Source of the DNA: Fodinibius salinus
GTDB taxonomy: Bacteria > Bacteroidota > Rhodothermia > Balneolales > Balneolaceae
DNA length: 64,000 nt
Reading direction: 5' to 3'
Assembly (NCBI RefSeq): GCF_008124865.1
Contig: NZ_VNHY01000001.1
Coordinates: 124,001-188,000, forward strand
Position 1 is the first letter of the stretch, and each line of letters begins with the position of its first letter. The position numbers and the translations under genes are program-made. Positions 11,536 to 56,963 of this stretch are shown piece by piece. The notes under the pieces are model-generated. The model did not search any database. It was given only the letters and a program-made list of their open reading frames with translations, and was not told the origin of the DNA.

Positions 11536-12054
11536 TTATTCAATGCGAACATCTCCGTAGCTTATCAGGTTTTGCTTACCGTCGTAAATAAGGATGCGAT
11601 ACAAACCTTCCTTTGTGGTATTCTCAGCGATGTTACTCCCTTCAAGGGCAATGGAATTAAAATCAATAAGTTCACTTTGATCTAACTGTCGAAGCAGGGG
11701 AAATTGGGTATCAGTAGGTAAACGAAATTTTCGAATTACGATGACATTAACAGGATCTGAGACATTGAATTCTATTTGTAAATTAAGAGTACTGTTATAA
11801 GGCAGGGGATTAGGATGGGGAGGGTCAGACAGTTCAGAGCTGATGGAAATCAGCCGATTATACATTGGGCCCACCCGCCAGTCATCGGGATCAGTTTGGC
11901 CAACAATTTCACCATTGCTATCGGTCTTAGTGATTTTATCCGGAGTGGTAAGTGCTCGATTTTCAAAATCGCGCTGGTCGTTGCTTTTGGAGCATCCCAT
12001 AAGCAATAAGACACTGAATACAGTAATCCAAAAAGCAAATTTGTTGATAATCAT
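11536..12054 (-). CDS. Putative lipoprotein, function unknown
   Basis: Starting at the ATG at 12054, the protein opens with MIINKFAFWITVFSVLLLMGC, a type II signal peptide with lipobox LLMGC. The mature part (~150 residues) looks beta-rich: NLQIEFNVSDPVNVIVIRKF, then YRILIYDGKQNLISYGDV at the end. An upstream in-frame TTG would add 38 residues without a sensible signal, so the ATG was chosen. It is predicted to be anchored in the envelope. Confidence 0.68.
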   Translation of the reverse strand: MIINKFAFWITVFSVLLLMGCSKSNDQRDFENRALTTPDKITKTDSNGEIVGQTDPDDWRVGPMYNRLISISSELSDPPHPNPLPYNSTLNLQIEFNVSDPVNVIVIRKFRLPTDTQFPLLRQLDQSELIDFNSIALEGSNIAENTTKEGLYRILIYDGKQNLISYGDVRIE

Positions 12055-12104
12055 AGCTGGAGCGGCATAATAGCATTTCAAATTAAGCAGTATAATATCG
12101 AACT

Positions 12105-12971
12105 TTGGGAACTTATTTGAAACTAAATTATCATATTTTGGAGAGTTCACCAATAGCCAAACGATCAACTATTCTCATTTTATTTTGTCTGCTTTGCGTA
12201 GGGATTACCAAACAAGGTTCTGGGCAAGACTTGTTGTTAACCTATAACCACTCCGAACGTCCACCTACAATGGATGAGATGCTCGAGTGGAAAGAGGAGT
12301 TTACCTATAAGGTTAAGTACGGATTTTTTAAGCTCGGCCAGGTGAAGACGCAAATTGTGCGTGATACCACTTACCGCGGTCATCATCTTTGGTGGCTGCG
12401 AACAATTATTACCTCTAATTCCAGTATTCCTTTTATAGGGGAAGAAGAAAATCATTATAACACCTTGTTTGTAGCTACCGACAGCCTGCCCCATACTAAA
12501 CTTTATTGGAGGGATAATGTTGAGGAAGAAGAGTTTAATGATGAACGATATCGTTTTGACTATGAGAATGAGAAGGTTTACGCTTCGGCAAAAGGGGCCG
12601 CGGTGGATACGTTTAAAGTAACGGAGCCGTCTAGTTCGGGGCAGCTCATTTTTTACTATTCGCGTTTGTTTGCAGGTCGTAATGAAGAATATCAGCTGCC
12701 GGTATATATCCAGCAGCAAAAAGGATATATCACAGCCAGGGCCACATCAAGAATGGAAACGCGCGAATATGAAGCATTTAAAAAGCCGGTTGAAACTTAT
12801 TTTACCAAAGGAAATGCCGATTTTGAAGGCCCGTTTGGCTTTACAGGGGAATTTAAGTCCTGGTATGTTACGGATGACTTGCGCGTGCCGGCCGAAGCGC
12901 ATGTCAAAGTTTGGCTGGGCAATGTAAAAGTGCGACTAATTAACTATAAAAAAGAACGACGTAACCAATGA
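12105..12971 (+). CDS. DUF3108 domain protein, secreted
   Basis: The protein has about 288 residues, with a hydrophobic signal segment ([15 protein letters not shown]) and a mature domain typical of DUF3108: [17 protein letters not shown], then a lipocalin-like run of beta strands ending in the [11 protein letters not shown] segment. The start is uncertain. The frame opens with TTG at 12105, and another TTG or even an ATA behind a GGAGAG sequence is possible. The stop overlaps the dut start by four bases (ATGA). Members are thought to be periplasmic or cell-wall proteins of unknown role. Confidence 0.75.
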
Positions 12972-21023: not shown

Positions 21024-21098
21024 TCCTCGGTAGCTCAGCGGCAGAGCAATCGGCTGTTAACCGATCGGTCGTAGGTTCGAATCCTACCCGGGGAGCCA
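21024..21098 (+). tRNA. tRNA-Asn (anticodon GTT)
   Basis: The acceptor arm TCCTCGG pairs with CCGGGGA. The D-arm is GCTCAGCGGCAGAGC, and the anticodon stem ATCGG/CCGAT encloses loop CTGTTAA with anticodon GTT. The T-arm holds GGTTCGAATCC. The encoded 3' end is G-CCA (discriminator at 21095, CCA 21096-21098). It is the integration target of the island, because the recombinase frame on the other strand ends inside it. Confidence 0.97.
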
Positions 21099-22720
21099 TT
21101 AAAAGACGAAGTGCGAACTGGAAGTGACTTTTCACTACCAGATTCGCACTTTTCTATTTTAGGCCACTCTGCTTCCAGCTTTTTGTCAGCGATATATTCT
21201 ACTTCAATCATGCCGGTCTTATCTCTATCTACGTTGGAGGTAACCCTTCGCACTAATGCTTTAATGTGATCTTCGCGCTTATCAGGATCGCCATTTTCCC
21301 ACTCCTCAATGAAATGCTTGAGAATTTTTTGGTACGATTTCGTGTCAATGGTTTTTTGATCGGACAGTCGCTTTTTCTCGCTTGTACAAAATTCTAACTC
21401 ATCCTCGTGCTCTTCTTTTTTGAGTGCCAAATTTTCGAGCTGTTCTAAAAGAATCTCTTCTGAACGGTCTCCGGCGTCTTTGGTCAAGAGTTTCTTCGTC
21501 TTTGTAATATCTTTTGAGGTCGATTTAATCTGTTGATTCAGGCGCTTAATTTTCTTCTCCAATTTTTCAATTTGAGACTCCCCTTCAAACTTGGATCGCT
21601 TCTTTACAGCTTTTAGAATCTCAGGCTCTTCAAAAAGTAGCTTGAAGGTATTGAACACGAAATTATCAAGAGAGGGGACAGACAAAGGTTTTGGAGCATG
21701 GCCTTTGGTATTACCTTCGCGATTCTTTTTCAGGCACTTGTAGTAGTAATATTTCTTGCCGCTGGATTTTTTTGTACTCGTCGTTGTTAGGCTACTATCA
21801 CAAAGCCCACATTCTGCAACACTTGTTAAAACGGCGGGCGTATCTGTCTTATCATATTTCTTAGGTTTGATCCGGTTACTTTCCAATACTTCTTGAGCCT
21901 TATCGAACGTTTCCTGTTCAATAATTGGATCGTGCTTGCCTTCAAACACATCGTCATTGTGTTCAATTTTCCCTAAGTAAACCTGAGACTTTAAGATTCG
22001 AAGTATTTGTCTTGATTCGTATTTATCACCTCCACGAGGTTCACCCTTACTGGTGACCCAATCTTTGGTCGTGTAACCATCTTTGTTTAAAGATTGTGCA
22101 ACCTTGGTAGAAGACTTGAGTTCAAAATAGCGGTTGTATACTTCTTTGACTTCTTCTGCTTCCTTCTCATTTATCTGGAGAACTTTTTTATCTCCTACAT
22201 CATATCCCAGGGGAGGGTATCCACCTTGCCAACGGCCCTGTTTGGCTGATTCCAACATTTTTTCTTTGGTACGCTGGGAGTTCATATCTCTTTCGAATTC
22301 AGCAAATACTAAAAGTAATCGTTGAAGCGCTTTGCCAGCGGGCGTTGAGGTGTCAATCTGTTGCGTAACTACAGCAATATTCACGCCGTGCTCATCTAGT
22401 TCTGATACAAGTTTCAGGAAGTCATGCAGGCTTCGAGATACGCGGTCCAACTTGGTTACTACCAGAAGATCAAATTCACCGTCTTTGGCATCTTTTTGCA
22501 GACGTTTGATACCAGGTCTTTTAAGATCTTTGCCCGATTTCATATCCTTGTAAATTTCATGGATTTCGTAATCCTTAGATTCTATCTGATTTCTGTTATT
22601 GATCCATGCTTTACATTGACTCTCCTGACCATCTAACGAGCTGAAATCATTTTCTGATTGCTCAACGGTCGATACCCGGATGTAGATGGCTACTTTTTTC
22701 TTTTTAGTCTTCTTGGCCAT
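21035..22720 (-). CDS. Large serine recombinase (site-specific integrase)
   Basis: The 561-residue protein has an N-terminal resolvase domain with catalytic Ser17 in AIYIRVSTVEQ and conserved arginines in KLDRVSRS. Next come the Recombinase domain (about 185-290), a zinc-ribbon starting at CGLC, a coiled-coil segment (~400-480) and the C-terminal EVEYIADKKLEAEWP segment. The last ~20 residues (SPGRIRTYDRSVNSRLLCR) are simply antisense tRNA-Asn, and the stop lies within the tRNA gene. This is the expected scar of integration at the tRNA 3' end. It directs insertion and excision of the island. Confidence 0.93.
   Translation of the reverse strand: MAKKTKKKKVAIYIRVSTVEQSENDFSSLDGQESQCKAWINNRNQIESKDYEIHEIYKDMKSGKDLKRPGIKRLQKDAKDGEFDLLVVTKLDRVSRSLHDFLKLVSELDEHGVNIAVVTQQIDTSTPAGKALQRLLLVFAEFERDMNSQRTKEKMLESAKQGRWQGGYPPLGYDVGDKKVLQINEKEAEEVKEVYNRYFELKSSTKVAQSLNKDGYTTKDWVTSKGEPRGGDKYESRQILRILKSQVYLGKIEHNDDVFEGKHDPIIEQETFDKAQEVLESNRIKPKKYDKTDTPAVLTSVAECGLCDSSLTTTSTKKSSGKKYYYYKCLKKNREGNTKGHAPKPLSVPSLDNFVFNTFKLLFEEPEILKAVKKRSKFEGESQIEKLEKKIKRLNQQIKSTSKDITKTKKLLTKDAGDRSEEILLEQLENLALKKEEHEDELEFCTSEKKRLSDQKTIDTKSYQKILKHFIEEWENGDPDKREDHIKALVRRVTSNVDRDKTGMIEVEYIADKKLEAEWPKIEKCESGSEKSLPVRTSSFNGSPGRIRTYDRSVNSRLLCR
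21109..21160 (+). terminator. Terminator of tRNA-Asn, inside the recombinase gene end
   Basis: AAGTGCGAA-CTGG-AAGTGA (21109-21127) pairs with TCACTA-CCAG-A-TTCGCACTT (21132-21151), followed by TTTCTATTTT. This is a strong intrinsic terminator for the tRNA, and it also encodes the last element-specific residues of the recombinase on the other strand. Confidence 0.8.
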
Positions 22721-32072: not shown

Positions 32073-32549
32073 CTATAGTATTCCCTTCGCCCGCAGTGAC
32101 ACATAGCCATCAGCGGTGAGAATGATGTGGTCGTCCAGGGTAATGCCCAGCATATCACCAGATTTCTTAATCCGCTCGGTCAGACTTTTGTCGGCCTTCG
32201 ATGGATTCAGATTTCCACTGGGATGATTATGCGCTACGATAATTGAGGTTGCTGTTGCTAGCAATGCCACCTGAAATATCGCTGAGGGGTCCACGATTGT
32301 TGCTGAACTACCGCCCAGGCTTACCTTACTCCAGCCAATGCAGCGTTTACTAGTATTTAGCAAGAGCACCACAAATTCCTCCTTCAGCTGGATATGACCC
32401 TCGTTCCAAACTTCCCGCAGTACCTCCACGGCTTCATCCGGACTTGTAACCTGCGGAAAAGTCTGGGGAGATTTCTCGGTTTTATAGGACAGCTTCACTT
32501 CGGCTAGGGCCGGTGAGGTTTCAATGACTCGGTGTTCTGAATTATTCAT
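32073..32549 (-). CDS. RadC/JAB-domain protein
   Basis: The 158-residue protein consists mainly of the MPN+/JAMM metal-binding core: EEFVVLLLNTSKR (the Glu), then IVAHNHPSGNLNPSKAD (the HxHPSG...D zinc-binding motif). The N-terminal HhH of chromosomal RadC is absent. Such short RadC proteins are typical of genomic islands and plasmids. The function is unresolved; despite the name, a direct repair role is doubtful. It heads the downstream end of a five-gene minus-strand recombination module. Confidence 0.88.
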   Translation of the reverse strand: MNNSEHRVIETSPALAEVKLSYKTEKSPQTFPQVTSPDEAVEVLREVWNEGHIQLKEEFVVLLLNTSKRCIGWSKVSLGGSSATIVDPSAIFQVALLATATSIIVAHNHPSGNLNPSKADKSLTERIKKSGDMLGITLDDHIILTADGYVSLRAKGIL

Positions 32550-32584
32550 TCCTATGATACCCCTGTCTGTTTTTGGGTTAGGAT

Positions 32585-33076
32585 TTAATTTAGTTCGGGT
32601 CTGGTTCCAAGTACGGCGTTGCCGTGGGCATAGTCCGGTAGCTCATCATTGTAGATTACCGATAAGATGCCCGGAAAATGCGTCTCCATTTCATCGAAGG
32701 CCATACCGAGGCTTACATTCAGCTGGTAGCGGATATGACTGTTATCCTCCGCTGGGTCATAGCGCAAACTGCTTTTATACGCTAGTGTCCCATCGCTGAA
32801 GTCCAGCATGATATTGCCCTCGTAGCAATGGAAATTGGCCCGAGCGATATACTCTGCAATCTCGCCTCTCTTCGGCGGTGGTACTTTGATGGGAGCATTG
32901 AGCAACAATGTCACATTCTGATACTCACTGGATATGATAATCGTCAGTCGAAATGTTCCGCTTTCGAGTTCAAATTCTGTGAAGTACAGCACGTCGCCAT
33001 CTTCATCATACTGCTTGCTAGCTGGTATTCCAGCTTCTTGCAGGTACTCATCTATTAGGTTTTCCATGGCTGTCAT
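32585..33076 (-). CDS. YbjN domain protein
   Basis: The 163-residue protein has a YbjN-like core: KRGEIAEYIARANFHCYEGNIMLD... followed by DGTLAYKSSLRYD. YbjN domains resemble type III secretion chaperone folds and are of uncertain function. It lies between the radC-like gene and a terminator. Its frame is continuous with that of the 145-aa gene upstream across a TGA (22 codons apart); see findings. Confidence 0.72.
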   Translation of the reverse strand: MTAMENLIDEYLQEAGIPASKQYDEDGDVLYFTEFELESGTFRLTIIISSEYQNVTLLLNAPIKVPPPKRGEIAEYIARANFHCYEGNIMLDFSDGTLAYKSSLRYDPAEDNSHIRYQLNVSLGMAFDEMETHFPGILSVIYNDELPDYAHGNAVLGTRPELN

Positions 33077-33103
33077 TTTTAAAGGGTTGAAAGAAATAAG
33101 TAA

Positions 33104-33123
33104 GGGAGCCTCGATTGGCTCCC
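33104..33123 (-). terminator. Hairpin between recombination-module gene and YbjN gene
   Basis: GGGAGCC (33104-33110) pairs with GGCTCCC (33117-33123) around a 6-base loop. On the minus strand the tail is T-rich (TTACTTATTTC). It probably attenuates transcription into ybjN-radC. Confidence 0.65.
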
Positions 33124-33139
33124 TCTGTGAATTGGATGA

Positions 33140-33577
33140 TCAACGGTCTTTAATCCGCGTGTAATTGCCAGACCCCTTGAAAATATGATCGTCATTAGGC
33201 GGCATGATGCTATCGACCCGAACGTAATTATCATGTTGGGTTAGAAGCAGCATGCAAGCTTGGCCTATGATCTTCTCAAGATTAAAACCCTGAGAAAGCT
33301 CGTCATCGGAAAAGGGTTGCCCGCGCCAACGCTGAAGCTCTGCTCGGAGATTGCTCTTCGGATGCAGGCTTTTGGTGAAGACACTGGATAGAATAAAGTG
33401 CTCTCCTTCGCTGTTGGTTGCCTGAAGCTCAAAAATTAGACTCAGCTCGTGCCGTTCCCCAAACTTGTTCTGCTGAATCCCCCTATCCCACACATCCATA
33501 CAACATGCGGGTTGAAGCCCGGTCGGGGCCAGTTCTTTTTGTTTGGATTTGGGTTTGATAACTAATGAATTGTCCAT
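33140..33577 (-). CDS. Phage/plasmid recombination-module protein
   Basis: The 145-residue protein is placed at the ATG at 33577 because a clean AGGAG lies 8 bases upstream (AAGGAGAACACTATG). The longer upstream frame overlaps the YqaJ gene and is spurious. Residues 15-125 show a pattern recurrent in mobile-element recombination modules: PACCMDVWDRG, ELSLIFEL, SVFTKSLHPKSNLRAEL and IIGQACMLLLTQ. The biochemical function is not known to me. The neighbour is the YqaJ exonuclease, so a role with single-strand annealing or replication is inferred. Confidence 0.72.
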   Translation of the reverse strand: MDNSLVIKPKSKQKELAPTGLQPACCMDVWDRGIQQNKFGERHELSLIFELQATNSEGEHFILSSVFTKSLHPKSNLRAELQRWRGQPFSDDELSQGFNLEKIIGQACMLLLTQHDNYVRVDSIMPPNDDHIFKGSGNYTRIKDR

Positions 33578-33587
33578 AGTGTTCTCC

Positions 33588-34541
33588 TTATTTAATTCTG
33601 AATATTCTGATTTTATTGGTGTTTGCGTACTCTTTATAGAGCTTGGGATAGTCATCCTTAAAGTCGGATGTGCTGAACCTTCTCCGATTTGATGACTTCC
33701 ATGTGGCAAGTCGCTGGTTATTTCCATCCAGAAGGGTTTCCGTATCACCCATAAACTCTTTGAGGTCGTGCTCGTACGAGCTTTTAAGATCTTTGAGCTG
33801 AGAGATGCGCTCCCGGACATTCTTAAGAGCGTTGTAACTCCGTCGGATGCTATCGGTCGCCTGTTTAGAGCTGTCAGGTTCGGAGTCTGGGTAGGCTATT
33901 TTGAGATCCTCCGAGGACTCCATTGGTGGGGCAATGTCTCCCTCGACGTGTTTGACCCACCAGCTGGAAAGCTTCTGGTTCATCTCAGCGATCATGCTGT
34001 CGTCTCTGAGTATTAATAAGGGCGGTGGGTATGTGGCAGAGTCCCTGAAAAACAGTTGTAAATAGCAGTAATCAAGATTAAGCACGTTTAAATAATGCAT
34101 CACTTGGCACTGGTATTCAGTTGGTACGTCATCCCAATCTGCTAAGACAGGTATACGGCTTTGCAGCGTACACTTGATCTCAAGTATACCTCGTTTTGAA
34201 TGTTTCTGATTTGGTTCGATAATACCATCCACGTTAGCGGACAGCATTCCCAGCTCTGGGTCAGAATGAATAAACATCTGATCGGGCTCGGTGACCTCAA
34301 AGCCGGTGCGCCTGGAAAACTCGGTGCGCACCTGACCCTCCCACTGTCGTCCGAACTTCATCACCGGGTTATCAGCATCGAATGAGAACCGACCCGTCTT
34401 TTCGAGCCACAGCATGTATGGCGACTTCCATTTGCTCATTCCTAAAGCGACTGCAGCGTCCGACCCGCCCAGAAATGACGTTCTAAGATCCCGCCATTGC
34501 TCGTAGGTCTTCTCGGATACATCTATAGTATTCGCATTCAT
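33588..34541 (-). CDS. YqaJ-type viral recombinase / exonuclease
   Basis: The 317-residue protein starts with the family signature RTSFLGGSDAAVALGMSKWK. The catalytic PD-(D/E)XK core is SANVDGIIEP (Asp) and GILEIKC (Glu-x-Lys), then a downstream Gln in TEYQCQVMHY. A C-terminal coiled-coil follows. Such lambda-exonuclease relatives resect double-stranded ends for annealing-based recombination. It lies between the DUF932 gene and the 145-aa gene. Confidence 0.9.
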   Translation of the reverse strand: MNANTIDVSEKTYEQWRDLRTSFLGGSDAAVALGMSKWKSPYMLWLEKTGRFSFDADNPVMKFGRQWEGQVRTEFSRRTGFEVTEPDQMFIHSDPELGMLSANVDGIIEPNQKHSKRGILEIKCTLQSRIPVLADWDDVPTEYQCQVMHYLNVLNLDYCYLQLFFRDSATYPPPLLILRDDSMIAEMNQKLSSWWVKHVEGDIAPPMESSEDLKIAYPDSEPDSSKQATDSIRRSYNALKNVRERISQLKDLKSSYEHDLKEFMGDTETLLDGNNQRLATWKSSNRRRFSTSDFKDDYPKLYKEYANTNKIRIFRIK

Positions 34542-34565
34542 AGCATTTTGTTTAGGCTTAGGATT

Positions 34566-35303
34566 CTAATTTAGGTACAGCCGTCGGGTAAGCTCATGGA
34601 GGGTGCTGTGGCGCTTGATCACATCTTGCGGCGGGCTGCTCTTAAGAGCTTCGGTAGCCGCGTTATAACCACTCCACAGCGACTCGGAGGCAAACTCCTC
34701 ATGGGACGGCTCCCATATTTCCCGGTAGGCCTTCGAAGACTGGGTAGGTGATAGCACGCCCTCACCGGTAAGGATGCCAAGGTACTCGAACTTCTCTTGG
34801 CGCTGCATCGGGACTTGCTTCATCTTCTTCACATCGTCGCTTAGTTTGGTGAACTGATGCTGGCTTTTGTAGATAGCTGTAACAATCTGATCATGCAGCT
34901 CTTGGTTCATGGAATTCCCGGTATGTTTTCGCATGACTTTGATATCCCCCGCAAACATGAGGTTATCACAGACAATAACCGAGGACCCTGTTACCAGGCC
35001 AGCACTCATAGAGCGGTCGTAAGAATTTCTGATTCCGAGAGCGACCTTTACATCACTATGTTGCTCCGATGAATTCCGGTACGTCATTACGCCAAACATG
35101 CGCTTCCCTTCATTGCTTAATGCATAATGATCTCCATCGAACTGGTAGCCTTTCAGCAGATCAGATGCGATGGTTAACGTGTTGAGCGCGAAATCGTAAT
35201 GATTTAGTGGGGTGTAGGTGTCGGTTTTAGGCGGCTCTTCAACGGCCAGTAGCTCTTCGAGACTGCACTGCTGAGATCCGCATTGGGTTAGTAGTCCATT
35301 CAT
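34566..35303 (-). CDS. DUF932 family protein
   Basis: The 245-residue protein has the DUF932 core VALGIRNSYDRSMSAGLVTGSS, followed by VIVCDNLMFAGD and MRKHTGN. The family is common on plasmids, ICEs and phages and is of unknown function. A strong ribosome site AGGAGAATACTATG precedes the start, almost identical to that of the 145-aa gene. It is the first gene of the recombination module. Confidence 0.85.
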   Translation of the reverse strand: MNGLLTQCGSQQCSLEELLAVEEPPKTDTYTPLNHYDFALNTLTIASDLLKGYQFDGDHYALSNEGKRMFGVMTYRNSSEQHSDVKVALGIRNSYDRSMSAGLVTGSSVIVCDNLMFAGDIKVMRKHTGNSMNQELHDQIVTAIYKSQHQFTKLSDDVKKMKQVPMQRQEKFEYLGILTGEGVLSPTQSSKAYREIWEPSHEEFASESLWSGYNAATEALKSSPPQDVIKRHSTLHELTRRLYLN

Positions 35304-49272: not shown

Positions 49273-49566
49273 TTACCCTTTCGTAACTCCCAGAAGTATT
49301 TTGATCGCTTCCAGTAAATACGTAGCCAGCTGTTCTTCGAAATAGGCAAAGGATTTGTCCACTTTCCGCAGGTGACGGTCTTCAAAGTCATTGCTCCGAT
49401 CAATGATTGCCTTCACCTCCGCAAGAGAACAAGCATTTTTGAGCTGCTGGTTTCAGGACAACCATTCCCGCAGTTCCCTGCAGTAGGTAAACGGTCCATC
49501 GTATTCTTTTATTCACGCTAAAAATAGTTTTTCAGTGTATCGTTCTAGTTCTTTCTTATTACTCAT
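49273..49566 (-). CDS. Small protein, complete only if TGA is read as Trp (1)
   Basis: Reading from ATG 49566 to TAA 49273 gives a 97-residue protein (MSNKKELERYTEKLFLA...) interrupted in frame by two TGAs at codons 18 (49513-49515) and 38 (49453-49455). Both sit in aromatic-friendly contexts (FLA-x-IKEYDG and REWLS-x-NQQL). There are no frameshifts and no internal TAA or TAG. Its ATG overlaps the end of the next upstream gene as ATGAGTAA, so the pair is coupled. The function is unknown. Confidence 0.6.
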
Positions 49567-49894
49567 TGTTATTTTTCTTTTCGTTTGAATTTAAATTGCA
49601 GTTGGTAAAGTCAAGGGTCTTGTAATGCTCGGTGCTTACCGTACCATTAAGGACGCCTTTGAGGATCGCCGGTGCTTTCTCAGCTGGCCTTTTTCACTCG
49701 TGTTTATGCGCTAAATAGCGGATCACATACGGTGAGGTATCCAACTTTCCGGCGGTTCGGTACATCCCACATTCTGTTCAGATCTCTTTGATCCTTTTCA
49801 GTCCATACTCTTCGATCAGCCGGTGGCTTTCCGAATAACTGGTATCGCGGGGTTTTCTGTTATTGGGATAATTGTGTGTTCTGCTCTTACTCAT
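49559..49894 (-). CDS. Small HTH-like protein, complete only if TGA is read as Trp (2)
   Basis: ATG 49894 to TAA 49559 encodes 111 residues if two TGAs (codon 39, 49778-49780; codon 67, 49694-49696) are tryptophan. The contexts are KRIKEI-x-TECG and YLAHKHE-x-KRPAEK. The pattern RLIEEYGLKRIKEI...YRTAGKLDTSPYVIRYLA looks like a helix-turn-helix that reads element DNA. The stop is TAA and overlaps the start of the 97-aa gene. A replication or regulatory role in the module is inferred. Confidence 0.6.
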
Positions 49895-50163
49895 AGTTGT
49901 ATTATTTAAGGTTACTGTTTTAGTGAATTAAATGATCTATATATAATAATCAGATTTTTTCGTCGGCTGTTGTCGGTCACCCTGCCACAGGTTATATATA
50001 AGGTGAGGGGTAGGTGGCTTATTTTGCAATATTATTTATTATAGTGTTTACAACAGTGTTATTTTTATTTCAATGTTCTCTTATAGGCCTCACCACCCTA
50101 CACCTATTAAGATAGTTTACTGTTCGTCAAGGACTTACAGGGTTAAGGGTACCTCAAGAAAGG
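49895..50163. other. AT-rich region between primase and small genes; candidate cis-acting site
   Basis: The region has no gene. An AT-rich core (about 50025-50085) is flanked by AGGTGAGGGGTAGGTGG (49994-50012 region) and its inverted relative CCTCACCACCCTACACCT (50087-50106). A third, similar GGTAGGGGGTGG lies at 49037. The layout resembles iterons of a replication origin beside its primase. Confidence 0.4.
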
Positions 50164-52188
50164 CTACCCCGAGCCGGATCCTTCCTCACCTTCATCGTGA
50201 TTTGATGCCCTAAAGGTAGATTCAAACGAATCTTTCTTATGAACCAGATAATACTTGGAGCCCTGACTTTTAACCGATTGGTACCCGTGTTTTGAGAGCG
50301 CTTGCCCCAAGCGTGTAACAGCCCGATGCGAGCTGCTGGGTAATCCCCCGCCGTGTAGCTTTTCAAGGATTTGGGTGGCCGTATATCGTTTGGCCTGCTG
50401 GTCACTTTTTTCAGCCTTTTCGAAATGCTCCAAGAGTAACTCTTCCTCAACCGACTGGGTTTCAAACTGCTTGTTGTGGCGGTTGATTTGCTGGATTTCA
50501 TTCCCGTCAAACCAATACTTGAACCCTTTCTTGTATAGATGCAGTGCTTGAGAATACACCTTGGTCATATCGATATTGTGCTGGTAGTTGATATCACTGA
50601 CACGGTGAATCAGGAAGCGCCTCGACCCCGTGGGATCATGCAGCATGGTACCCTGATTGATAGAGCCGCAAAGGCTCGAAAACCGAGTAAGCTTGTCGGC
50701 ATATCTGGCGTAGGGTCGCCGGACGCGTATTTCACTTTTGGTAATGAGTTCTTTGAGGGCGCCTTCCTTGTATTTGGTAAGGGTTTCTAGCTCATCAAGC
50801 TGGCAGATGATTGTCTCAGATAATTGTATGACAGAGTCTTTATTGTTTGGATTGAGATTGCCCGAGAAAACGTAGTCGGTAAGTTCATCCGGTGCTAGTC
50901 CGAGTAGAAACGTACTCTTTCCTATTCCTTGTCCTCCTTGGAGTATAAGCACCGTTTGGTTGACAACCTCTTGTTCCTTTACGCTGGCAACTAACGCTAC
51001 CAGCCACTTGCGCAGGCACCATTTCCAATACTGCTGATCTTTCGCCTTTACCTGCTCGGCCAACTTATTGATGTGGTCGGTACCGTCTCACTTGGGCAAC
51101 CCTTCGAAATATTCGTGGAAGGGATGGTATTTTTCCACAAAATCAGATTGCAAGAGGCTCTGCAGACGTCGTTGGCTGATCTTGGCCCCACGATTTCGCA
51201 TATCTCGAAGCACGCTGTTGAACTGATAGTCATCCATCAGCTTCCAGTCTCCATCTACCTTCACTTCGGTGCGGTTGGTCACCACATTGAAACGAAAATC
51301 GTAGAAATAGTTTAGAAATCCCTCGTGTTCGTCGCTGCTCGTAATCGGTTTGTTCTCAAAGGCCTTGCGGATGGTCATTTCCCCATAGGTCGTCCCATCT
51401 GAGCGGTGTTTTTCGTCCCATTTCGAGCGCATAAGCGCCGATTGTCGGTAAATTTGATCGGTAAGCTCGGCATCGAACTTGGTTCACTTTGCAAGGAGGC
51501 TAATATATCCCAATTCGGCCCGGGATTTGTCGCCAGCGTAGCGCGTCAGGTCGCCATGATCGTGCAATGCGCTAAAAAGGGGCCCGTCGTCGCTCTCTTT
51601 GATCTGTGAGAGTAGATAATCGTGTTTAGGACTGGAAACAGCCCGTTTTCGGCTCGAAGATCCTCCAGTAGTCGTTGGAATCTCCAGTTCTTGGATATTT
51701 ACCGTCCGAATAGGCTTCGAATCCCCATAAATATCGCCGGTCATCGTAAAATACCGCACTGAATCGTAGATTTCGATACATTTGAAGCCCACATGCTCCA
51801 TGGAGATCTTATTGGGGAAGTCATCTGCTAATATTCCTTTTACAAAGATGTGCAGGCCGTTCCCGCTGACTGATTTTTCGGTATAGGAGTCCGCCCACTC
51901 GACAATTTCGGCGGCAGCTGGCAGCAACTGACCACCGCTAAAACAATCATCGAGGTCAATACCAATAAACGGGTCATCTTTGGTAAACATATACCCGATA
52001 CCACTGATATTAGAATGTGTACCCACTGTTAGAGCCTGTAACGCCTCCTGAAAGGAACTTCAAGTGGAGGGATCATTGGATCTGGCCGGGCGGCCATTGG
52101 GTTGGAGGGGGATTTTATTGTCGCTATGACATACTCACTGATCTCGTCCGGTGAGTCCGGAGTTTATATTTTGAAAGTTACTATTCAT
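50164..52188 (-). CDS. Bifunctional primase-helicase with four in-frame TGA codons
   Basis: ATG 52188 to TAG 50164 gives a 674-residue protein if TGAs at codons 18, 43, 235 and 367 (52135-52137, 52060-52062, 51484-51486, 51088-51090) are tryptophan. Each falls where the family has Trp: RDQ-x-VC, DPST-x-SSF, LLAK-x-TKFD...RQSALMRSKW, and EGLPK-x-DGTD. The N-terminal half is a primase-polymerase domain (GIGYMFTKDDPFIGIDLDDC). The C-terminal half is a VirE/D5-like ATPase (LQGGQGIGKSTF Walker A; QLDELETLTK). Seven other Trp are TGG. This would initiate replication of the element. See findings for recoding versus decay. Confidence 0.75.
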
Positions 52189-52439
52189 TTTATTGAGATT
52201 AATTTATCAATTTATTTGACACTGGGATTAATTCATCCCTGTTCTTACTTAATACATTGCGTGATCTGGAGTGATTTGTCAAATATTTCTTACAACTGTT
52301 AAAAATGGCTTTATTAGTTATAAAGTTTTATATCATAAAATAAAGCCCTTTAAGTGTTATAAAACAGGTATTTAGTAATAATAAATAGATTTAGTAAAAA
52401 GTTTGATAAAATTATTTTATTCGCTAATTGTGTTGATAC

Positions 52440-54668
52440 TTAATTTTGAAGCTCCTCAATCAGTGTGATAGGAATAAGATAGAGGCTTTCATTATTTTGG
52501 GTCGTCGTGGCGTATTGACTATCTCTTCGTATGCCAAAACAATTTTCAATTAACTCGTTAAATTTTCCCTTTCTTCGTAGTACCTCATAATCCTCTTCAA
52601 AATCCTTTTTTAAGTCGAATTCCCAGAGTTTTTTGGTGATATATTTGAAATGGACTGTATCCTTATCATCCGGGTCATGTTCTTTAAAAAATGCTTTCAG
52701 TATATCTCGTATTGCGTCAAGCAGTTGACTCTGATTAGCAGCTTCTTCATACCAACAGACATCAAGGCCTTCCAAAATATTTCTTTTTACGTTGAGTTCG
52801 TCAACAAGCTGGGCAACTGTTAATAGTGGTTTGGCTAGCTGCAGTTTACGATTGTCAAGCTTGATATTACTGACCGGTAATCGAATATCGGTAGGCATAT
52901 TGGCAACCGCATCAAACAGGGTGGAGGTATTGGTGAGTCCAAAAGCGAAGCAGGAAAGTTGAATCAGGCGAATATCCTCAGCGATCTGATTGTCAAACTC
53001 AATGAATTGGTCCTTTGGAATACTTTTGGGCTTTTCAAGAGTCTTAATCTGAATGGATCGTGATTTCAAGGTATCAATAAAAATATCTCCAGTACCACCG
53101 AAGGCTTTAGGAGAATAGGTGTTAAGAATGACATTGTCATTCTTGGATCGTTTTTCGTAGGAACCCTTATAGTGATAGCCTCCATTAAGAAACCGGGAGA
53201 GATCATCTTCGGATTTCCTTTTTGAAGAGTAATCTTCAAATTCATCAATACACAGTGTAGAACTATGGTAATGGACCTGGTGAATAAGAGAGGAGGGGGT
53301 GGCTTTCGTCAAATGTTTGCCGTTGAACGATAGTTGTGAAAGGATTTCTAGGATCGTTGTTTTTCCCGTGCCCCGTTTCCCCATAAAGTGCAGATATGGA
53401 TAGGCTTGAAATAACTTAAACACATAACTACCAATCAGCCACGCAGTGAGAATGTCAAAAACCTGGCGATGCTCAAAATACAGAAATCGCCTAATGAACG
53501 ACCGAACGAATGGATATAACGAAGAGGGTTCCAAGAGTTCTTCTCGCTTTATATGGTCAACCATATCTTGGTCTAATCGACTTTGCACAGGAGTGCTATG
53601 TGAAGGCGTTAAGCTTTCCAACACATATAGGTGCCGATTCTTCATGGTTCTAATAGGATTAGAAAGGATCGTTCGAGTGCCACCATAGCTATAGATTAGC
53701 GAGCCCCTTTTAACATCTTGGGCTGGATTAAATGAGAGTTGCCCATATTCTTTGCGATTATCATTGTAATTTCTTCTACTTGGGACATCACTCGCTTCGA
53801 GCTTGGTTATATTCTTTCGAAGTTCTTCCAACAGCTTCTCCGGGGTATGCTCACTGAGCCATATGGCAATAGATGTATTGGAAAAAACATTGTAGAGGTT
53901 CGATTTATAAAGCGGTATATCCTCCGTTAATAAAACGCTTGCAAAGGGATAAATGGAGAAACTGAAATTCTTCCCAAAGTTACGCAGGCAGAATATGATT
54001 TCTTTATCAGACAATAGGGAGGGGTAACCATAGTAGCTTACTTCATCTTCGGAAGGTAAGGGAATGGCACATATCCTATGAGATTGAAGAAAGTCTGCTA
54101 TTAGGGGATTTTCTACGATCAACACAGTCTCGGATTCAGTGAACATCTGCACTGGAAGTCGAAAAACGCCACGGTGCTGCCATTTTAATCCATGAGCCTG
54201 AAGATTGTAATCCCTAATAGCTACCTCCGCTCCCGTGTTGCTTAAACTAAAATATCGGAGCGTATTCAGATGGGGAAGGGCTTTTATCTTTATATTTTTT
54301 GGCTGGTAGGAGAAAGGAAACTGTCTGGATAATGCCTGAATATCATCAGTCGATTGACCTGAGTCTTCTACATTTTGCTGAAATGCACCAAAGTAGTCCC
54401 CTTCGAAATTGAAGGCCACTTTTTGTCCACTGGATGCGATGTTATAGAGTTCACCATACAACTCCTCAATTGTGATCGACTCATTATCAAGGTTTAGTTC
54501 AAAACTGTTATTAACCGATAATGATCGACTTTCCCCACGCCAGTCCTGAATAGTTATCGATATCGGGAAGTTGTCATTGTGCACATCCCTAATGGGGAAA
54601 TTAGGTATATTTTGCTCAAGAATTAGCAGTTCGTGACGCTGAAGTTTTACTGATTGGAAATTAATCAT
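52440..54668 (-). CDS. Large P-loop ATPase, partner of the CDC48-like protein
   Basis: The 742-residue protein has a beta-rich N-terminal ~300 residues and a C-terminal ATPase. YLHFMGKRGTGKTTILEIL is Walker A (about 430), STLCIDEFEDY is Walker B, and YSPKAFGGTGDIFIDTLKSR follows. The ATPase part resembles helicase-like P-loop proteins of plasmids and viruses (DUF3631/D5-like). Its ATG overlaps the stop of the upstream double-AAA gene (ATGA). No in-frame TGA is needed here. The role is unknown. Confidence 0.68.
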   Translation of the reverse strand: MINFQSVKLQRHELLILEQNIPNFPIRDVHNDNFPISITIQDWRGESRSLSVNNSFELNLDNESITIEELYGELYNIASSGQKVAFNFEGDYFGAFQQNVEDSGQSTDDIQALSRQFPFSYQPKNIKIKALPHLNTLRYFSLSNTGAEVAIRDYNLQAHGLKWQHRGVFRLPVQMFTESETVLIVENPLIADFLQSHRICAIPLPSEDEVSYYGYPSLLSDKEIIFCLRNFGKNFSFSIYPFASVLLTEDIPLYKSNLYNVFSNTSIAIWLSEHTPEKLLEELRKNITKLEASDVPSRRNYNDNRKEYGQLSFNPAQDVKRGSLIYSYGGTRTILSNPIRTMKNRHLYVLESLTPSHSTPVQSRLDQDMVDHIKREELLEPSSLYPFVRSFIRRFLYFEHRQVFDILTAWLIGSYVFKLFQAYPYLHFMGKRGTGKTTILEILSQLSFNGKHLTKATPSSLIHQVHYHSSTLCIDEFEDYSSKRKSEDDLSRFLNGGYHYKGSYEKRSKNDNVILNTYSPKAFGGTGDIFIDTLKSRSIQIKTLEKPKSIPKDQFIEFDNQIAEDIRLIQLSCFAFGLTNTSTLFDAVANMPTDIRLPVSNIKLDNRKLQLAKPLLTVAQLVDELNVKRNILEGLDVCWYEEAANQSQLLDAIRDILKAFFKEHDPDDKDTVHFKYITKKLWEFDLKKDFEEDYEVLRRKGKFNELIENCFGIRRDSQYATTTQNNESLYLIPITLIEELQN

Positions 54669-56809
54669 GATTCAGTAGGTGAAGGGCTTAAGATGTTTTT
54701 AAATAGGTTTTGATCTGCTTTGTCTCCGTCAGCAGTATGGAATACAAGGTGCCGCTTGATGCTATTTATATAATCAGAAATCTCAGCTTGCGTTCTTTTT
54801 TGTTGGTATAGTAAATTGGCTAAAGAGTCAATTTGTGTTTCGGTAAGTTGATGGGGGATTTCTTCAAGCTGCTGCTTAAGCTGTTTCTTGATATTCGGTA
54901 ATTCTGGACGTTCTACCTCAATGTTCGTTCCAAACCGACCTGGACGAAGCAAGGCTGGATCAATCATATCCTTTCGATTGGTTGCTGCCACAAAGATGAT
55001 ATTTTCATTGTCAGCGCTATCCCCAAACTGAGTAAGTAGCGTATTGATGCTATCTGACGCATGACTGGATTCTGCAGAATTCCTAGTTTGGGCGATACTA
55101 TCAATTTCATCAATGAAAACTAGGATAGGTCTGAACAATCGAGCATTTTCAAAAAGCTTGTTTATATTTTTCACCGTTTCACCAATCCACTGAGATTTGT
55201 TTTCACCGGCATTAACGACTTTAAACAGGATATTCAGTTCGTTAGCCACGGCATTGGCAATACTGGTTTTACCCGTTCCGGGAGGTCCATATAATAGAAA
55301 CGCTTGGTTGGGTTTCACCTCAATATCGGTTCGAAACCGTTCGGGATGAAACATGAGTTCAGCTTCAGCACAAATCTGATCCACAAATCCTTCGGATCCT
55401 GGTAGATCTTCCTTCTTTACGGAAGGCCGTTCGATGTTCATTTCAGTTTCACAAAGCGGGGTAACAGCTTGTAAAGCATTTAATAGATCTTCTTTTATCA
55501 TGGGGAGAGAAGAAGTATTTGTTTCTTGCTTTCGAGCCCGGGCCTTTTGATATGTTTTTGTCTTTTCTACCAGTGTATTTAAATCTGAACCAACGTAACC
55601 AATAGTCTTCCTTGCAATGTCTTTCACAAACCCTTCAGTTATCGAACTGCTATCGACAGAATACTTATTAAGTTTCGTTCGTAATATTGCTGCTCTGCCT
55701 GTTTCATCGGGAGGACCAATGCCGATTTTCGTATCAAATCGACCGGATCTAGTAACGGCTGTATCTAATGATGAGAGGTAATTTGTTGCTGCGAATACCA
55801 AAACATTTGGGGGACGATTTTTGGGATCTAATAACTGCAGCAGGACATTTACATTTTCTCTATCATGGGCATGATTCATCTCCGAGCGATGCCCCGCAAA
55901 AGCGTCAAGCTCATCCAAAAATATGATTGCACCACCTTTAGCTTTTGCAGCTTTATCGAAGCGTGCTTTTAAATTCTTACCGAACTGATGAGCCCACTTA
56001 GATGCCAGATCTCCTATTTGAATTGAATCAAAATACACTCCGAGATCTTCTGCTATGGAAGTAGCTATCTCAGTTTTACCGCAACCTGGCGGTCCATAAA
56101 GAAGTACTCCGCCCATCGGGTCGGGGTTTGACTCTTCACCATTTAAGATATCAAGGAAAGGATATACAACCTCATTTTTTAAGCGCTGTATAGTGTCATC
56201 GACCCCCTTTACTTTGTGAAGGTTTTTAAACGTTAGTTCCCGTTTTTCGCCTGTAGTAATATCTTCTATAGATTCTTCCCGGTTTTCATCGTCCAGGTAA
56301 TATTGTTCTGCGTCTGGACCGTTCCCAAACTTCAGAAGGGTTTGTTCCGTAATGATCGCCTGAGAACGATCATTATCAATTGATAATACCTTGCAAATAT
56401 TACCACCATTACGGATATAGTGTCCTTTAAATATTACACTTTTATCTTTTATCCGTTCTGTGAGGGGAGGTAGTGAATCGCTCTCATCTTCATCAAGGAC
56501 TTTAAACTGGACTTTCTTTGCAAAAGAAGGCTCGATTAGTTTACATAGTGCAGAGGAGGAGGAAAAATTGTAAGCTTCTTTCCATTCCTCCGGCAATACG
56601 ACAACTGATCGGTCATGGTATTTAGCAGGGGCGGGGATTATCCTTCCAATTACTGATAGCTTATCATTAGGTCTTTGTATGCTGATAACTTTTTGATACT
56701 GGGTTTTAAACTCCAAGACAATTTTGGGCGGTAGCGCAATACCTCCCTCAATATAGTTGTCAAACTCGACAGGTAGAGAAAACTCCTTGGCTACGTTTTC
56801 TTGATTCAT
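54665..56809 (-). CDS. CDC48-like double AAA+ ATPase
   Basis: The protein has about 714 residues. A CDC48 N-domain-like beta region (residues ~1-150) precedes two AAA+ modules. D1 has LLYGPPGCGKTE and IIFLDELDAFAGH; D2 has LLYGPPGTGKTS and LVFIDEIDSIAQ, with arginine-finger sequences FAATNYLSSLDTAVTRSGRFD and VAATNRKDMIDPALLRPGRF. The ATG at 56809 is preferred over a TTG at 56857. CDC48/VAT-type proteins are rare in bacteria and more typical of archaea. It likely remodels a protein or nucleoprotein complex with the ATPase downstream. Confidence 0.85.
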   Translation of the reverse strand: MNQENVAKEFSLPVEFDNYIEGGIALPPKIVLEFKTQYQKVISIQRPNDKLSVIGRIIPAPAKYHDRSVVVLPEEWKEAYNFSSSSALCKLIEPSFAKKVQFKVLDEDESDSLPPLTERIKDKSVIFKGHYIRNGGNICKVLSIDNDRSQAIITEQTLLKFGNGPDAEQYYLDDENREESIEDITTGEKRELTFKNLHKVKGVDDTIQRLKNEVVYPFLDILNGEESNPDPMGGVLLYGPPGCGKTEIATSIAEDLGVYFDSIQIGDLASKWAHQFGKNLKARFDKAAKAKGGAIIFLDELDAFAGHRSEMNHAHDRENVNVLLQLLDPKNRPPNVLVFAATNYLSSLDTAVTRSGRFDTKIGIGPPDETGRAAILRTKLNKYSVDSSSITEGFVKDIARKTIGYVGSDLNTLVEKTKTYQKARARKQETNTSSLPMIKEDLLNALQAVTPLCETEMNIERPSVKKEDLPGSEGFVDQICAEAELMFHPERFRTDIEVKPNQAFLLYGPPGTGKTSIANAVANELNILFKVVNAGENKSQWIGETVKNINKLFENARLFRPILVFIDEIDSIAQTRNSAESSHASDSINTLLTQFGDSADNENIIFVAATNRKDMIDPALLRPGRFGTNIEVERPELPNIKKQLKQQLEEIPHQLTETQIDSLANLLYQQKRTQAEISDYINSIKRHLVFHTADGDKADQNLFKNILSPSPTES

Positions 56810-56963
56810 AGAAAATATGGGCTTAACTAAAACTATTTGCGAGGAATAGGTGAGCAATGTCCTCTATTAGTCGCAATGCAGATGATTTTTTAGCGACTTG
56901 TATATATTGAGAGAGGGCTTATATTGCAAGAAATGAATACAAGATTCTAAATACTTGAAGTAA

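Follow-up and report, generated by a model that had tools for sequence, protein, structure and literature searches.

Reassignment of stop codons was previously known from phages equipped with suppressor tRNAs of their own, and from organisms with an altered genetic code. The reassignments described for phages include TAG read as glutamine (code 15) and TGA read as tryptophan (code 4), and two papers present such recoding as a likely means of timing the expression of lytic genes (PMC9523058; PMC10879173; both citing Borges et al., 2022). Among cellular organisms, code 4 occurs in Mycoplasma and in insect endosymbionts (PMC8629427).

Integrated elements that depend on phages form another group to which the locus described here can be compared. 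Known P4-like satellites and phage-inducible chromosomal islands respond to helper proteins, which induce them by way of transcription or of repressors.

This article describes three genes of an integrated element in the bacterium Fodinibius salinus (Balneolaceae, a family with marine and salt-loving members), in which TGA appears to stand for tryptophan. The window is the whole stretch of 64,000 nucleotides that was analysed (assembly GCF_008124865.1, contig NZ_VNHY01000001.1, positions 124,001 to 188,000), and coordinates are positions in it unless a locus is named. As in recoded phages, many in-frame stop codons lie at conserved residues of selected genes, the host code is standard and a function in timing is probable; unlike in those phages, the stop codons lie in elements that are integrated into the chromosome and in which no capsid gene was recognised, the recoding affects genes for replication and regulation, and a suppressor tRNA was not found on the Balneolaceae element. 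UGA as tryptophan is shared with code-4 organisms, whereas the Balneolaceae host retains both RF2 and the use of TGA as a stop, and lacks a tRNA-Trp(UCA). UGA is also decoded as an amino acid in programmed read-through and in selenocysteine insertion, but the amino acid here is tryptophan, at many positions where TGG can stand instead, and no local RNA signal was seen. The elements resemble P4-like satellites and phage-inducible islands in their integrase, primase-helicase and defence cargo, in the lack of visible structural genes and in a replication that would stay off until a signal arrives; they differ in that the block would be translational, and their dependence on a helper is hypothetical. 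Within a partial coverage of the literature, no report was found of an integrated element whose replication module is recoded and which lacks a suppressor of its own.

Organization of the Module

An earlier note, made from the letters of the window alone, had described three adjacent minus-strand genes broken only by TGA. Translation with code 4 agrees with it throughout, giving proteins of 674, 111 and 97 amino acids with eight in-frame TGA codons (four, two and two, respectively), no internal TAA or TAG and no frameshift. The true stops are TAG for the primase-helicase gene and TAA for the two small genes, and the remaining eight tryptophan codons of the module are TGG (seven in the primase-helicase gene, none in the 111-aa gene and one in the 97-aa gene). 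The features of the module are as follows.

50164-52188, minus strand: primase-helicase, 674 aa if UGA is tryptophan (from domain matches and family homologues)
52135-52137, minus strand: TGA at W18 of the primase, the first tryptophan codon in the gene and a putative early gate
52060-52062, minus strand: TGA at W43 of the primase; TGA in 5/6 sequences having tryptophan there
51484-51486, minus strand: TGA at W235 of the primase (from the alignment)
51088-51090, minus strand: TGA at W367 of the primase; tryptophan in 60/75 external homologues
49559-49894, minus strand: 111-aa protein, probable helix-turn-helix (HTH) DNA-binding protein, TGA at W39 and W67
49778-49780, minus strand: TGA at W39 of the 111-aa protein; TGA in 8/8 aligned sequences
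49694-49696, minus strand: TGA at W67 of the 111-aa protein; TGA in 7/8 aligned sequences
49273-49566, minus strand: 97-aa protein, TGA at W18 and W38, overlapping the 111-aa gene
49513-49515, minus strand: TGA at W18 of the 97-aa protein
49453-49455, minus strand: TGA at W38 of the 97-aa protein
52189-52439, minus strand: region upstream of the module, with a TTTGAC box common to the relatives compared

The primase-helicase comprises a primase-polymerase N domain, an NrS-1-like HBD domain and a VapE-like helicase domain. The 111-aa protein probably resembles a helix-turn-helix protein, judging by its predicted helices (the structure model is helical and HTH-like, pLDDT 81), and any role given to it is a guess; a fold search with the model returned no significant match, and comparison of the protein with phage and plasmid collections gave no match. 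The overlap of the 111-aa and 97-aa genes, ATGAGTAA (ATGA), is as the earlier note read it, and in some relatives the 97-aa gene is joined to the HTH gene as a fusion. The terminator that had been placed after them (about 49237-49190, GCCTCAGCC-ATAATA-GGCTGGGGC-T run) can be seen by eye but is absent from the list of a consensus terminator scan. Upstream of the module, the TTTGAC box might conceivably be a promoter; a sigma-70 scan of the same region showed no excess.

Distribution in and Outside Balneolaceae

Among 92 Balneolaceae genomes searched, 14 elements were found in 11 genomes, all 14 with TGA inside genes of the replication module; relatives carrying related modules include Gracilimonas. 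The primase occurs in nine places in eight of these 92 genomes (the window's own copy and eight others at 40–57% identity to it), each with two to six internal TGA codons, and the lone TAA of one relative falls beyond its 631-aa open frame. A profile of the 111-aa protein identified 13 places in 10 of the 92 genomes, every one with TGA. Four of the HTH-gene places adjoin an unrelated replication helicase of 826 aa which likewise has TGA at tryptophan columns, and another copy of this helicase, from a different genus, has seven TGA. Further recoded genes were observed in related modules (L048:10330-11202 and 11599-12132; L307:12235-12780), among them a primase-like gene whose codon 18 may be TGA and a family of about 180 aa with one to four TGAs.

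Outside Balneolaceae, about 80 primase homologues show no internal TGA, save single TGAs at the alignment edges in two of them. In HTH homologues from other families, both TGA columns hold TGG wherever an alignment is possible, and the single long homologue of the 826-aa helicase (32% identical) is open and without TGA. No close relative of the module was found in IMG/VR.

Tryptophan Columns and Selection

TGA and TGG interchange within the same tryptophan columns in five alignments, which include the primase, the HTH protein, the small protein and the unrelated 826-aa helicase; a count over 28 genes gave 88 TGA and 111 TGG. The eight TGA columns of the module were expected to be tryptophan in homologues, and the alignment with relatives 40–57% identical places the TGAs at their tryptophan columns. 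A further example is the W395 column of the primase, which is TGG in the window copy, TGA in 6/9 aligned sequences and tryptophan in 81/82 external homologues.

The one pair in which dN/dS could be measured, the closest pair of recoded helicases (L210/L211), has a dN of 0.088, a dS of 1.10 and a ratio of 0.08; most other pairs are saturated at synonymous sites and are still 57–77% identical in protein. Both the recurrence of TGA columns in related elements and a ratio below 1, which the earlier note had anticipated, are thus seen, the latter in this single pair. The comparison argues strongly that the module proteins are under purifying selection. Taken together with the alternation of TGA and TGG in tryptophan columns, it shows that UGA is at some time read as tryptophan in the module genes.

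The comparison with other classes of interrupted genes leads in the same direction. The module genes have no frameshifts or mixed stops and the dN/dS of the measurable pair is not near 1, as opposed to what a pseudogene would show, and the UGA columns correspond to tryptophan and not to cysteine or selenocysteine. The earlier argument that decay of the ordinary kind would produce other stops besides TGA is borne out by a decayed terminase gene of Balneolaceae (L256, in genome G063, contig C33), which mixes 3 TGA, 2 TAG and 3 TAA.

A change at the level of the mRNA would also preserve the identity of the codon, since A-to-I editing of UGA would give UGI, read like UGG as tryptophan. We regard this as very improbable: the TGA codons share no common sequence context resembling bacterial TadA sites, and no deaminase was recognised among the element genes examined.

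Confinement of the Recoding

The other genes of the island and of the host use the standard code. In the remaining 25 island genes counted, TGG occurs 130 times and recoded TGA not once, and four of these genes stop at TGA; the flanking genes in 10 relatives contain 480 TGG, with 25/105 stopping at TGA; and 8/22 host genes of the window stop at TGA, so that the earlier reading of TGA as a normal stop in host and island genes stands. RF2 is present in the host. Within the elements, TGA is found only in replication and regulator genes and the recoding is not concentrated in late or lytic genes. This comparison shows that only the replication and regulation module is recoded, and a change of code throughout the element or the host is contradicted by the presence of RF2, by TGA as a host stop, by the TGG-only usage of the other element genes and by the failure to find a UCA tRNA in the window genome, beside the modules or by pattern in the family.

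These counts bear on two of the three causes that the earlier note had offered, namely that the module came from a code-4 replicon or that it was hit by G-to-A changes restricted to tryptophan codons. The only changes seen are indeed from TGG to TGA, as a decaying relic of a code-4 replicon or a product of G-to-A hypermutation would have them. An origin from a code-4 replicon is at odds with the other genes of the same elements, which have TGG only and of which several stop at TGA, and a G-to-A hit is at odds with the recurrence of the TGAs in genomes whose proteins are 40–60% identical. A recent hit was rejected as well on account of the strong purifying selection and the lack of internal TAG. 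Considering in addition that the same TGA columns are retained across several genera with no TAA, TAG or frameshift, and that the homologues outside the family use TGG, a relic or hypermutation product is extremely improbable.

Position and Context of the TGA Codons

The TGA codons tend to lie early in the recoded genes. The first tryptophan codon is TGA in 23/28 genes against 15.4 expected (p = 0.0008), and the summed positions of the first TGA amount to 709 against 1661 expected, a value reached in 0 of 20,000 label shuffles; a deduplicated set of 14 genes gives the same tendency (p = 0.001). The first UGA is usually within the initial 10–50 codons, and two members of the 826-aa helicase are down to two TGAs, at W49 and W766/767.

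The base following a stop codon affects the competition with the release factor. A is the next base after 51/88 TGA and after 41/111 TGG (p = 0.004), and T is rarer after TGA than after TGG (p = 0.03), as expected from such competition, although this bias may partly mirror the next residue. Both the position and the context tests partly ignore shared ancestry, and their significance is overstated; they lend support and do not amount to proof.

Search for a Decoder tRNA

The window genome (98% complete) has 38 tRNAs by the Rfam model with all anticodons read, its sole tryptophan tRNA has the anticodon CCA and none of the 38 has UCA, which answers in the negative whether the host has a tRNA-Trp(UCA). 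Within the island, Rfam sees only the tRNA-Asn at the attachment site, in line with the earlier failure to find a suppressor tRNA in the window, and none of the host tRNA loci was called as a Sec tRNA by ARAGORN. The stretches around the modules of eight relatives contain no tRNA, seven stretches from relatives contain none with Rfam at the gathering threshold, and the intergenic regions aligned among relatives have no conserved tRNA-like block. A hidden tRNA in the element was rejected, since neither ARAGORN nor Rfam with a permissive threshold nor the intergenic alignments revealed one; a relaxed ARAGORN run gave noise only. A pattern search for UCA tRNAs in 8 and in 92 genomes produced chance matches or tRNAs with other anticodons, and 70 of the family matches (most of them) contained 0 tRNAs when re-read with ARAGORN; several of these genomes are fragmented MAGs, and the pattern would miss unusual tRNAs.

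A suppressor of the element or the host may nonetheless have been missed by the tools, being split, unusual, modified or unassembled. Odd tRNAs can escape ARAGORN and Rfam, and MAGs are among the genomes searched, but the full tRNA set of the nearly complete window genome and the empty stretches and intergenic regions of the relatives make this explanation rather improbable.

Another candidate is the host's own tRNA-Trp(CCA). In the window host this tRNA (L029:276-349, genome G000, contig C3) has a G27.A43 mismatch and U28.G42; in E. coli tRNA-Trp, position 27-43 is reported to influence the reading of UGA. The tRNA-Trp of four other element hosts has a normal C27-G43 pair, and the mismatched tRNA was discarded as the common decoder. 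More generally, Balneolaceae hosts may read UGA as tryptophan well enough by means of the near-cognate tRNA-Trp(CCA), depending on context or stress, which would give the elements a low or growth-phase-dependent expression. The restriction of the recoding to Balneolaceae, like a host trait, the enrichment of A after TGA and the unusual tRNA of the window host speak for such decoding; the normal tRNA-Trp of the other hosts, the presence of RF2 and the common use of TGA as a host stop speak against it, as does the number of codons, since three to seven TGAs per gene read at a few percent each would leave almost no full-length primase. We consider host decoding unlikely. Since natural read-through of a few percent could not yield a protein with three to seven UGAs, the cell must at some times contain an efficient suppressor.

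The Element and a Possible Helper

The module lies in an island that starts at tRNA-Asn with a large serine recombinase, which is probably the integrase of the island. The features of the island outside the module are listed below.

21035-22720, minus strand: large serine recombinase at tRNA-Asn (from gene annotation)
32073-35303, minus strand: RadC, YqaJ exonuclease and DUF932, common to relatives, TGG only
52440-56857, minus strand: 742-aa protein and 730-aa double AAA ATPase, conserved neighbours of the module, TGG only

The reverse strand of tRNA-Asn encodes the C-terminal end of the recombinase. A search of the window for a right attachment repeat found none, and the right end of the island is hence not fixed. 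The 730-aa gene stops at TGA, the 742-aa protein has a HindVP-like match at its N terminus, and the pair adjoins the module in several relatives. Defence cargo lies within 22836-48103 and includes a type IIG restriction enzyme, a split Dsr1 (SIR2 of 329 aa and a protein of 922 aa), two ThsB-like (Thoeris-type) TIR proteins and PDC-S31. The gene content is of the satellite type, with an integrase and a primase-helicase and without structural genes in the annotated stretches: no virion gene was recognised among the island proteins scanned there, and no terminase match (phrog_2) in the genome of the window's host.

IMG/VR contains phage contigs with UCA tRNAs of about 75 nt, and some of these contigs have open frames in which TGA is about as frequent as TGG, as in recoding of UGA to tryptophan; a decoder of phage origin is plausible on these grounds. 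Contigs matching the UCA-anticodon pattern include L188, L193, L199 and L205; ARAGORN labels the IMG/VR UCA tRNAs SeC where it calls them, and L199 is not called. No phage with a UCA tRNA could be linked to Balneolaceae, the terminase genes of Balneolaceae and their IMG/VR relatives were accompanied by no UCA tRNA, and a host-like UCA tRNA pattern searched against IMG/VR found nothing.

Of the three causes offered at the outset, only suppression of UGA as a switch is retained. It fits best, given that TGA is conserved across genera and in unrelated genes, lies early in them and has no suppressor nearby. We hold it to be slightly more probable than its contrary that the UGA codons of the module form a translational lock opened in trans by an opal suppressor, for which a phage tRNA-Trp(UCA) is the most likely source; that the lock acts on replication is inferred, and a phage with a suppressor tRNA as the helper is a hypothesis. 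According to this proposal, the three genes would serve a family of mobile elements integrated in Balneolaceae genomes as their module for replication and regulation. As long as the element rests in the chromosome, RF2 would terminate translation at the first UGA, and neither the replication proteins nor the HTH protein would be made; upon arrival of a tRNA reading UGA as tryptophan, the whole module would be translated and the element would replicate.

A more specific version, to which we give less than even credence, is that the elements are satellites locked by the genetic code, whose replication is switched on only after the opal-suppressor tRNA of a phage redefines UGA. Such an element would sense the translation programme of the phage and not one of its proteins, and could be regarded as a satellite-like parasite or as an escapee.

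Concluding Remarks

One operon of an integrated element here differs in codon meaning from its neighbours and from its host, apparently without a decoder of its own. If the decoder is borne by a phage, mobile elements can eavesdrop on the genetic code of phages. Standard gene callers split such modules into pseudogenes, and the class has therefore probably been overlooked.
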